The notes under the pieces: generated by a model | Databases searched by the model: none | Told to the model about the DNA's origin: nothing | Seen by the model: the letters and a program-made list of their open reading frames with translations, nothing else | Origin: Phaeobacter porticola | GTDB lineage: Bacteria; Pseudomonadota; Alphaproteobacteria; Rhodobacterales; Rhodobacteraceae | Assembly: GCF_001888185.1 (NCBI RefSeq) | Contig: NZ_CP016364.1 | Span: forward strand, 2,232,001-2,296,000 | Reading direction: 5' to 3' | DNA: 64,000 bases | Shown here: in pieces, positions 15,854-18,372 of the stretch | Position numbering within the stretch: the stretch's first letter is position 1 | How the letters are laid out: each line of letters starts with the position of its first letter | Program-made: the position numbers and the translations under genes

Positions 15854-16233
15854 ATGTGCGGAAGATTTGGCAGACCAGATCTGGCGTGGCGACAGTTGTA
15901 CTAGATGGAGCGCCGTTTTTCTCGGCCCGCCTATACCGGTGCGCGATCCAAATGCGATTGAGCTATCAGCGAGCTGGAATGTAAAGCCCACCCAAGTGGT
16001 GGACATCGCCTATCTGAACGGCGACCAGCTGTTCAGTACAACAGCCCGCTGGTGGTTCGTGCCAAGCTGGCACCGCGGCGGTGTAAAGGGTTGGAAACGC
16101 ACCGCCCTTAACGCCAAGATTGAGACAGCGGCCAGCCTGCCGAATTTTCGCAATGCATGGAAGTCACAGCAAAGAATCATCCCGGCTGCAGGTTACTATG
16201 AATGGACTGGACCCAAAGGGTCCAAAAAACTGG
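15854..16233 (+). pseudogene. Broken SRAP (SOS response-associated peptidase, YedK/HMCES-like) gene
   Basis: The frame opens with ATG TGC, giving MCGRFGRPDLAWRQLY, which has the catalytic Cys2 of the SRAP family, but hits TAG at 15902. The rest lies in another frame: ASWNVKPTQ, WWFVPSWHRGG, ALNAKIETAASLPNFRNAWK, then IIPAAGYYEWTGPKG. These match the SRAP core, including the conserved Asn-Ala-(K/R)-x-E and YEW segments. Intact SRAP proteins form a thiazolidine crosslink with abasic sites in single-stranded DNA. The gene is frameshifted near 15900 and lost beyond about 16233, where the IS begins. It is certainly non-functional. Confidence 0.85.
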
Positions 16234-16258
16234 ACCTGTCGCGGTTTGATGGCGGCCC
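16234..16258 (+). repeat. IS3 left terminal inverted repeat
   Basis: This 25-base end matches the complement of 17681-17705 at 24 of 25 positions. It starts ACCTGTCGCGG; the IS proper may begin at the TG at 16237, as IS3-family ends usually start with TG. Confidence 0.8.
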
Positions 16259-16444
16259 GGGTGCTCGTTTAAGCCACCTTTTGTTCGAATGCGACCGGGC
16301 TTTTCCGGCCCAGTGCTGAGTATCGGCGTCGCGGATTGTAGAAGCCGTTGATGTATTCAAAGATCGCCATCTCGGCTTGCCTGCGGGTGTCCCATGATCT
16401 TCGCCAGATCAATTCTGCCTTGATGGTTTTGAAGAACGTCTCGA

Positions 16445-16489
16445 CCACTGCTCGGCAGGCGATTTGCAGTGCAAATCTGCCGAGAGGGG
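16445..16489 (+). repeat. Palindromic insert A, copy 1 (in orfB)
   Basis: A palindromic segment of about 42-45 bases. Outer stem CTCGGCAG/CTGCCGAG, inner stem GATTTGC/GCAAATC. It sits in frame between the DNAA and VETFF codons of orfB and adds 14 residues next to the catalytic Glu. Confidence 0.8.
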
Positions 16490-16640
16490 CCGCATTATCG
16501 TAGCAGTTTCCTGTCCCGCTCATCGATACCTTGAACCCGTTTTGGCGCAGGATCTTCTGATCGTCGTGAGAACAGTATTGCGATCCACGATCCGTGTGGT
16601 GAATGCAGCCTTTTGGCGGTGACCGGAATGCGATGGCCAT

Positions 16641-16680
16641 CCACCGCCCGGCAGTGGTTTGCCTGCAAACCATGAGAGGG
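16641..16680 (+). repeat. Palindromic insert A, copy 2 (in orfB)
   Basis: Starts CCACCGCCCGGCAG and ends GAGAGGG like the other copies. Inner stem GGTTTGC/GCAAACC. It adds 14 codons in frame between RAL and MAIAFR. Confidence 0.75.
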
Positions 16681-16894
16681 ATCAGCGCCCGGATCGCCAG
16701 ATCCCGTTTCATTCGATTACTCACCGCCCAGCCGATGACTTGCCTGGAATGCAGGTCCAGAATCACTGCGAGATACAGCCAGCCTTCACGGGGCCAGATA
16801 TAGCTGATGTCACCGGCCCATTTCTGGTTCGGCTGATCAGCCGTGACGTCCCGATCCAGCAGGTTGGGCGCGATATTGAATTTATGATCACTAT

Positions 16895-16937
16895 CCCCTC
16901 TCGGCAGATTGCTTTGCAATCGCCTTCTGGGCAATGG
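16895..16937 (-). repeat. Palindromic insert A, copy 3 (in orfB)
   Basis: Opposite orientation to copies 1, 2 and 4 (reads CCCCTCTCGGCAG on the plus strand). Inner stem GATTGC/GCAATC. About 40 bases are inserted between KVTT and DSDHKFN, shifting the frame. Confidence 0.78.
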
Positions 16938-17000
16938 TCGTCACCTTGTGTTTGCGCGTTCTGACAACAGATATGCCGTTCTGGCGCATTAGGCGGCCCA

Positions 17001-17043
17001 CCACTGCCCGGCAGGCGATTGCAAAGCATTCTGCCGAGAGGGG
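17001..17043 (+). repeat. Palindromic insert A, copy 4 (in orfB)
   Basis: CCACTGCCCGGCAGG at one end and CTGCCGAGAGGGG at the other. Inner stem GATTGC/GCATTC with one mismatch. About 41 bases are inserted after GHRR, shifting the frame. Confidence 0.78.
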
Positions 17044-17269
17044 CGACGGTGCCCGATATCCAGACCTATCTCTTTCAGCTCCTCCGTCATCCGTGGCCTG
17101 CCACAGCTGCCCAAGCTGAGGCGCAACTGTTCCTTGATATGCGCCAGTGCCACCAAAGCACTGCGCTGTCTGCAGCTGGTCGGACGGCTGCGGAAGGCCC
17201 GCAAACCGCGCGGACCAACATCCATGACATCACACAGCCGGTGGGCGGGAAAGCTGTCGCGGTGTTCCT

Positions 17270-17312
17270 CCCCTTCCGGGACATTGCTACGCAATGCCCT
17301 GCCGGGCAGTGG
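17270..17312 (-). repeat. Palindromic insert A, copy 5 (in orfB)
   Basis: Opposite orientation. Ends CCCCTTCCGGG and CTGCCGGGCAGTGG; inner stem CATTGC/GCAATG around TAC. About 41 bases are inserted between RFI and EEHRDSF, shifting the frame. Confidence 0.78.
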
Positions 17313-17361
17313 ATGAACCTGAACCTCATGGCCTTTGGCCCGCGAAGAACTGCGTTGCCTT

Positions 17362-17406
17362 CATCGGGAAAACAGTCCCCCGGACTGTTTTCTGGTCCTC
17401 TTCAGT
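17362..17406 (+). repeat. Palindromic insert B (in orfA)
   Basis: GAAAACAGTCC (17368-17378) pairs perfectly with GGACTGTTTTC (17382-17392) around CCC. It is unrelated in sequence to insert A. It interrupts orfA between the EREIL codons and the AACGCAGTTCTTCGCG that should continue them. Confidence 0.75.
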
Positions 17407-17645
17407 TTAAGATCTCCCTCTCCTCCTTGAGAATGCGGTTCTCACGTCGAAGCCGGTCATTCTCTTGGACCAGGCTCAAATCCTCGTGCGACACTACATC
17501 CGTGTCCCGGTGTGCCGTGATCCATTTGTTAAGCGTTGACAGGCCAACACCAGGATCATCAGCAACCTGCTTGCGGTTAAGCCCGCTGGTCAGCGCTCTT
17601 CGCAACCGCATCAGCTCGGAATTCGTCCGTCCGGTTCGTGCCCAT
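17362..17645 (-). pseudogene. IS3-family OrfA (helix-turn-helix), frameshifted
   Basis: The original start is probably the ATG at 17645 behind AGGAGACGAGGT (MGTNRTDEFRADAV). A single-base shift near 17605 moves it to the frame reading ALTSGLNRKQVADDPGVGLS (HTH) and HRDTDVVSHEDL, then the leucine-zipper part ENDRLRRENRILKEEREI. The frame stops at 17402 because a second kind of palindromic insert (17362-17406) follows. Confidence 0.8.
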
Positions 17646-17680
17646 ACCTCGTCTCCTTTGGTGCAGTAAATGCGATCAAA

Positions 17681-17705
17681 GGGCCGGCATCAAACCGCGA
17701 CAGGT
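17681..17705 (-). repeat. IS3 right terminal inverted repeat
   Basis: This is the partner of the repeat at 16234-16258. It ends CCGCGACAGGT; if the terminal dinucleotide is CA, the IS ends at 17702. Confidence 0.8.
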
Positions 17706-18372
17706 ACAGACCTGCCTGGGACGCAATCGAAGCCAACCTCAAAAACCTGCCGGGCAACAGGCGTGGCGCTTTGCCCCAGACACGACGGAGCGTTTCGAGG
17801 GTGAGAATGATTTTACAGCCCGCGCTTTGAAAGATACGCAATACCTGTCGCGTATCGCTCGCGGTTATCTTGATGCGCTCTATGACGGGGTAGACGGCAA
17901 AAGCCACGTCTGGGTTGTGCCCGGCCGCCTGACCGAAAGGCTGCGCCGCCATTGGGGGTTGAACAGCCTGCTGCCCGACAAGGATGGCGCGGTCAAATCC
18001 AAGAACCGCACCGATCACCGCCACCATGCAATCGATGCCGCCGTTGTTGCGGCCACGGATCGCTCCTTGATCAAGCGGATCAGCCAGATGGCGCAAAAAG
18101 ACGAAGTGAACGGCGCCGAAGATGTCGCCCGCTCCGTTCGCCCCCCATGGGAGGGATTCCGTGCCGATATAGAAGCGCAACTGAACCGCATCATCGTTAG
18201 CCACCGCGCCGATCACGGGCGCATCGATCTGGCAGCACGCAAGGCCGGACGGGACAGTACTTCGGGGCAGCTGCACAACGATACCGCCTATGGGGTGGGC
18301 GAAGGCAGTTCAGTCGTCAGCCGCAAACCGCTCCTGTCGCTTAGCTTGCCCCGATTCTCGCCAAGCCTTTAG
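17706..18372 (+). pseudogene. cas9: Remnant of a type II (probably II-C) cas9: RuvC-III region
   Basis: Only the C-terminal third of a Cas9 is left. Readable segments are RPAWDAIEANLKNLPGN, then, after a one-base frameshift near 17760, WRFAPDTTERFEGEND, FTARALKDTQYLSRIARGYL, VVPGRLTERLRRHWGL, the RuvC-III signature NRTDHRHHAIDAAVVAAT, and GQLHNDTAYGVGEGSSVVSRKPL. The HHAID motif contains the catalytic His and Asp of Cas9 RuvC. HNH, bridge helix, RuvC-I and RuvC-II are gone on the left (IS end at 17705), and the PAM-interacting part is lost after 18372. No cas1, cas2, tracrRNA or array is present in the window. Confidence 0.85.

Follow-up and report, generated by a model that had tools for sequence, protein, structure and literature searches.

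The orfB gene of an IS3-family insertion sequence (IS) in the window analysed here, by which we mean the whole 64-kb stretch of DNA, is interrupted by short palindromes, and the locus raises the question whether these belong to the IS or entered it later and, if they entered it, what kind of element they are and what moves them. The original prediction placed five related palindromes in orfB, and these were borne out at their positions (P1 to P5, Table 1) both by the model R1 and by an alignment with relatives of the IS. R1, built from 16 hairpins including the window's five, gave five strong matches over the whole 64 kb (E 2e-12 to 3e-8), the next match having E 0.19, and found no match at E<=1 when three related genomes supplied 400 kb of control DNA; the repeat finding and the alignment with relatives are independent of R1. 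Compared with intact copies, the window IS holds six inserts (lengths in Table 1), four of which break the reading frame. That two of the palindromes keep the frame had been stated correctly, at lengths of 42 and 39 nt rather than 42 nt for both, and the sixth insert, a 43-nt hairpin assigned to family B (the other five being family A), had been missed. This hairpin lies where intact copies carry the run AAAAAAG at the orfA/orfB junction, which, by analogy with other IS3 elements, is probably the frameshift site. The IS ends read TGGACCTGTC...GACAGGT, and then ACA in the window copy as against CCA in the other copies. The prediction spoke of one IS3 element, whereas the host genome holds four copies of the IS, which agree in their family A inserts as far as each copy retains the region; its central observation is right and understated. 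Two of the host copies (C3:52750-54088 and C1:2463370-2464381) share a deletion of ~125 bp between short GTCACC repeats, with which P3 is lost.

Table 1. Coordinates of the IS3-family copy in the window and of the hairpins inserted in it
Feature	Position	Strand	Description
IS3-family element, non-functional	16231..17705	- (transposase strand)	rve and rve_2 in orfB; aligned with seven intact 1225-bp relatives
Family A hairpin P1	16445..16489	+	42-nt insert, in frame
Family A hairpin P2	16641..16681	+	39-nt insert, in frame
Family A hairpin P3	16895..16937	-	40-nt insert, frame-breaking; site also filled in L067 (Leisingera plasmid NZ_CP038238.1)
Family A hairpin P4	17001..17043	+	41-nt insert, frame-breaking
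Family A hairpin P5	17270..17312	-	41-nt insert, frame-breaking; site also filled, with other stems, in L037 and L045
Family B hairpin	17363..17405	undefined	43-nt insert at the junction of orfA and orfB; L040 has a hairpin with a different stem at this site

The alignment comprised the window copy and 15 relatives (13 loci and two plasmid copies) and omitted L049, the shorter matches, and the second copies in the genomes G013, G123 and G271. Seven of the relatives are intact, each exactly 1225 bp long, and inserts are present in none of the seven. The nine filled copies, the window copy included, carry 23 inserts of 36-57 nt, 17 of them similar inserts in the eight other relatives; by our sorting, 16 of the 23 belong to family A, four are of family B type and three are of a third type. 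Outside the inserts these copies are well preserved in length: indels amount to one base for the window copy and to two for L045, six copies have none, and L040 lacks only its end. The filled L039 and the empty L042 are 94.7% identical, and their site differs by a clean 41 nt with no duplication. Because the palindromes are absent from all seven intact relatives, they are inserts and not parts of the IS. The original prediction had named the same segments in intact relatives as what would speak against later insertion, and had proposed comparing empty and filled sites in related IS copies; the segments were looked for and found in 0 of 7, and the comparison supports later insertion. That the palindromes are parts of the IS itself is accordingly next to impossible. 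The four host-genome copies do have them in identical positions as far as the region is retained, but the same hairpins also occur at unrelated transposases and between genes, and the intact copies refute this explanation. The third hairpin type (CCATTGTCCTCGGACCAATGG) was seen in the same IS3 group in L045 and L046, at the same site, and in L038.

The P3 and P5 sites recur among the filled copies (Table 1), as does another site filled in both L037 and L045, and the stems at these recurrent sites differ. In the tree L037 is sister to the intact L043 (99/99) and L045 to the intact L050 (100/99), and with strong branches only, at least five changes between the filled and the empty state are required. 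Since L037 and L045 each pair with an intact sister, the fillings of the P5 site are most simply read as separate gains, so that three IS lineages would each have received at this site a hairpin with a stem of its own. A single IS may hold several inserts (6 in the window copy, 4 in L037 and 4 in L045), and pairs within one IS are common, with irregular spacing, while single inserts are exact. Among the 16 family A inserts of the IS3 set, 11 are not multiples of three, and the orientation relative to the gene, by our count, is 9 to 7.

Family A is built on one plan, taken from 69 elements (71 of 78 model hits were used and 69 kept): CCAYTGCCCGGCAG is constant at the 5' end and GAGAGGGG at the 3' end, and the hairpin between them varies freely in sequence, with a total length of ~38-45 nt (39-42 nt for the inserts in the window IS). 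The RNAalifold consensus of the first alignment gave five pairs only, probably because the stem lengths differ, and pairing was therefore assessed by swapping arms between elements. In the hand-picked 59 elements that made up the arm-swap and covariation sets, the mean longest perfect stem is 5.5 bp, against 3.3 bp with the arms swapped, and the highest mean among 200 shuffles was 3.63. The arm-swap test thus agrees with the earlier claim that the stems differ yet stay paired. Folded alone, the P4 hairpin does no better than its shuffles. A GC-rich variant (stems e.g. GCGGC/GCCGC) whose fixed ends are identical or almost identical was met at L088 (C1:539257) and L089 (C5:35489) of the host genome and at L256, L319, L342 and L355; it seems to be intergenic and may be the chromosomal root of family A.

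Comparison of filled and empty sites places the element, in either orientation, just 3' of Y-R-W-C, with no duplication of the target. This target is degenerate and not fixed. In the left flank of the 69 elements, position -2 is A in 39, G in 20, T in 10 and C in 0, position -1 is T in 45, A in 15, C in 9 and G in 0, and position +1 is C in 57; the right flank is nearly flat. The same rule was repeated in 99 exact-pattern elements among the matches listed. Covariation between element and target, calculated for 192 position pairs in the 59 elements, gave nothing convincing: the best value was 0.003 uncorrected, and it concerns -2 paired with +3, a right-flank position that is not part of the element. 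With no clear covariation among the 192 pairs, a choice of target guided by pairing with the element was rejected.

A one-sided target, the lack of duplication and hairpin ends are features of the IS200/IS605 elements, and family A resembles them in inserting 3' of a short target, with Y-R-W-C to the left and a nearly flat right side. Miniature elements derived from IS200/IS605 have two separate hairpin ends, whereas family A is one hairpin of ~40 nt for which no tnpA partner was found. The lack of target duplication at the compared sites sets it apart from the MITEs of DDE transposons. Family A is also like the small dispersed repeats of Nostoc, reportedly described by Elhai et al. in 2008 as very small mobile palindromic repeats.

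The original prediction proposed a search of the consensus across genomes of the family, and R1 detected family A in 115 of 295. The number of R1 hits reaches 21 per genome, only 21 candidates having been scored, and another search gave 59 in G007. The host genome accounts for 22 model hits. The four IS copies contain 17 of them, IS5-type copies another three, and the remaining two are weak and apparently intergenic. Going by the names, we take nine of 80 titles, among at least 120 stretches, not to be Rhodobacterales; seven of these nine matches have stems of at most 4 bp and are not close to a transposase, whereas the other two, from a Haliea bin and Labrenzia, form good stems and are located at IS3-type genes. 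Family A matches are spread over many plasmids in, for example, Pseudosulfitobacter pseudonitzschiae and Leisingera. The exact pattern occurs in 7 stretches of IMG/VR, and the phage collection gave no match to a 43-nt hairpin. One locus, L120 (G013:C1:710938 and three more places), has a family A hairpin in four equal-scoring copies, with IS3-like homology and a frame resembling a DNA methylase next to it.

Residence at transposases was measured in two ways. For the model hits, 74 of 78 entered the context test (three duplicate another locus and one is partial), and for 57 of the 74 (49 loci) homology to one of 16 reference transposases begins no more than 250 bp away, as compared with 200 of 7960 control positions; 13 of the 16 references come from the hit loci themselves, and with references from other loci only, 54 of the 74 remain. 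R1 was trained on the hairpins of this IS3 group, and surveys made with it lean towards such hairpins, whereas the exact-pattern scans use the two fixed ends and ignore stem and place. Among the matches listed, the exact-pattern set, drawn from public genomes, has 128 elements, 80 of them near transposases; after 29 with a stem of <5 bp were set apart (14 near transposases), 66 of the 99 stem-forming elements lie within 250 bp of transposase homology. The corresponding background, taken >2 kb away in the same stretches, is 200 of 8883 positions (2.3%). Still among the matches listed, 36 of the 99 overlap transposase homology, 53 lie within 60 bp of it, and in 31 it flanks the element on both sides or spans the site; 33 of the 99 (with 17 references) and 17 of the 74 model hits are not near a reference transposase.

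More than one kind of IS is involved. Pfam assigned a transposase-type domain to 14 of 30 segments picked by eye, another family (beta-lactamase, DNA methylase) to 2 and no family to 14, some of which are probably wrong frames. The families IS3, IS5 and IS21 were recognised at the sites by Pfam or by plasmid annotation, the annotated plasmid windows offering few usable annotations at the sites in a table that omits pseudogenes; by our reading, IS30, IS66, IS481, IS1182, IS6 and IS256 would have to be added. The preference for this IS in the original prediction therefore stands as a link to ISs, wider than proposed and spanning several families, and falls as a restriction to this one.

That family A is a small non-autonomous palindrome, mobile but gene-less, as had been suggested, is well supported by the empty sites, the independent hits and the target rule. 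The account that we consider rather probable is that of a miniature non-autonomous mobile element of Rhodobacterales, moved in trans by a hairpin-reading enzyme, resident at ISs and spread by passenger ISs. The enzyme, of HUH type or like it, would work in trans on a single DNA strand, recognise the folded hairpin and place the element, as in IS200/IS605 and, as has been proposed, in REP systems. The ISs would serve as target or refuge and also as vehicle, and those bearing inserts would move as passengers, carrying the hairpins between replicons and species. Action on a single strand is probable, judging from the one-sided target and the hairpin alone.

Residence at ISs might also arise with no targeting of ISs at all, if the elements insert anywhere, survive in dispensable DNA and are multiplied by the IS that carries them. 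We regard such neutral refuge with hitch-hiking as a real possibility, short of probable. Much of the raw excess at transposases is indeed amplification: in eight genomes scanned by exact pattern (29 matches in six of them, none for the reversed control), 25 of the 29 matches lie at transposase homology by our reading, which become 9 of 13 distinct events when copies of one IS are collapsed. Insert-bearing ISs do multiply, and some elements lie away from ISs, namely L088, L089, L241, L242 and L244, which have no transposase homology, and L224, with only a 14-residue match on the hairpin itself. However, hitch-hiking copies an existing insert and adds no new ones to the same IS, whereas single ISs here took several hits with few other mutations and with few copies elsewhere in the same genomes. 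As a rough argument from few copies, refuge and spread by the IS explain part of the residence at ISs, but the four to six hits on one IS not easily. The opposite extreme, an enzyme that places hairpins preferentially into ISs of whatever family, and so fast that four to six hits precede many ordinary mutations, strikes us as doubtful; if true, the hairpins would be the work of a parasite aimed at transposons or else of the host, as a means of disabling transposons.

With regard to the mover assumed in our preferred account, the closest known systems are small palindromic repeats of bacteria. REP/REPIN elements are described, in the parts of PMC3733652 and PMC3116915 available to us, as gene-less imperfect hairpins of 20-40 bp with a tetranucleotide at one foot, thought to be mobile in trans, and family A shares with them the small gene-less hairpin thought to be moved in trans. 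Its foot is CCAYTG (CCAYTGCCCGGCAG) with the degenerate Y-R-W-C target outside the foot, in contrast to a GTAG at the foot, and it shows exact single inserts where REPINs are thought to move as doublets. The available part of PMC3733652 also describes CGTC repeats as small palindromes common in Alphaproteobacteria with no dedicated transposase known, mostly head-to-head dimers and with only few fortuitous associations with transposase genes, and it places most REPs between genes. Unlike these, family A ends in CCAYTG and GAGAGGGG and has no CGTC, TGTC or CCTC tag. Two of the four family B type inserts (L040 and L045) do have, on the other strand and by our reading, a CGTC-like foot. The palindromic elements of Rickettsia (RPEs) are a further parallel, being palindromes inside protein genes of Alphaproteobacteria; they stand in frame in metabolic genes according to the available part of a review (PMC10969869), in contrast to family A, in which the majority of the inserts in the IS3 set change the frame.

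Classification of family A as REP/REPIN elements of the GTAG or CGTC class, moved by a RAYT, is in our judgement unlikely. Size, imperfect hairpin and short one-sided target would suit it, and family A occurs in 21 of 30 Y1-positive genomes as compared with 94 of 265 others (Fisher p 5.5e-4), an association that the IS load could also explain. Against this, family A has neither a GTAG nor a CGTC tag and is found mostly at ISs rather than in intergenic DNA, and Y1_Tnp (PF01797), present in 30 of 295 family genomes, was not found in the host genome (G000) or in G013, the IS of which carries four inserts. A REP-type tyrosine transposase, the example given in the original prediction, is thus not supported as the present mover. 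No gene tied to the hairpins was found. R1 was also run on six Y1 loci, of which L187 (read as L245) alone had a family A match on each side, the second being weak (25.1 bits); its Y1 gene looks like an ordinary IS200 tnpA, and by our reading the right hairpin would lie in an IS5-like remnant.

Among known RNA families the only match is a weak one, of the family B hairpin, to a Brucella sRNA (21.8 bits, with a gathering score of 137), and a known RNA family was rejected on this basis. Matches to family B were recorded in 32 plasmid records, 17 of them from Paracoccus and others from Phaeobacter, Leisingera and Moraxella (the last in the tally only), and one match lies inside an annotated IS110 transposase gene.

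The passenger role that our account gives to the ISs can be followed in copies of the IS3 element that were still multiplied despite their inserts. G013 has six full-length copies with four inserts each, none a multiple of three, and no full-length insert-free copy was found there. Matching 3-bp flanks are present in three of the six (CTT, GAT and CAG) and absent in the other three; in the host genome, GCT stands to the left and to the right of the copy at C1:2617351, and neither the window copy nor the C3 copy has a flank match. Comparisons of the G013 copies with L037 gave 0-2 silent and 7-9 replacement differences in four copies and no differences in a fifth, and those between host-genome copies gave 4 silent against 5 replacement differences in one case and 5 against 10, with one stop in addition, in the other, so that there is no sign of purifying selection between copies. 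The other IS3 proteins found in the host genome and G013 are 25-42% identical to the query, apart from short remnants. With no sign of selection at the level of the protein, the dead ISs were most likely mobilised by another transposase, being copied as its passengers. The right flank of the C3 copy (C3:54092 onward) has ~31 bases beyond the IS end in common with the window copy (17709-17739), as if flanking DNA had moved along with the IS.

If the hairpins were removed from the RNA or skipped in translation, in the manner of mini-introns or mobile bypassing elements, the IS would stay functional. Such an explanation could call on the fact that outside the inserts no stop occurs in 359 codons of the window copy or in 360 codons of L037, and on the multiplication in G013 of insert-bearing copies only. 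But the differences between copies are mostly replacements, and the orientation of the inserts to the gene is about even. The absent protein-level selection between copies renders bypassing or splicing very improbable. At sites invariant in the intact copies, the changes at codon positions 1, 2 and 3 number 9, 12 and 7 in the window copy, 7, 3 and 5 in L037, and 13, 15 and 24 in the intact L050; roughly, and from few copies, replacement-type changes are somewhat more numerous in the window copy than in most of the intact ones, which is not so for L037. The prediction had offered already inactive DNA as a second preference, and this covers only part of the cases: the IS of G013 took its four inserts but shows no stop in its 360 codons, no indel besides them and no clear surplus of replacement changes.

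Small palindromic repeats are known in many bacteria, and how most of them move is unsolved. In our account of family A as a mobile element carried by ISs, the filled and empty sites, the readable target rule, the repeated sites and the range within Rhodobacterales make movement directly testable. Few such repeats would be expected to gather at unrelated IS families as family A does, and one may ask whether transposons are being aimed at. The portions of PMC3116915, PMC3733652 and PMC10969869 available to us name neither the family A sequence nor an IS-bound family, and the word Rhodobacter is absent from that of PMC3733652. A search of the open literature, including the string GCCCGGCAG, gave no title or abstract that describes family A, most subscription journals lying outside its scope. 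As far as we have found, family A is a new family within a known kind, the small mobile palindromes, and its residence at ISs is unusual.

The surroundings of the window copy are themselves remnants. The IS is flanked by a truncated gene for SRAP (SOS-associated peptidase) at 15867-16230 and by the C-terminal RuvC-III end of Cas9 at 17709-18372, and from these two remnants it seems that deletion or rearrangement of a CRISPR locus took place at the site of the IS.
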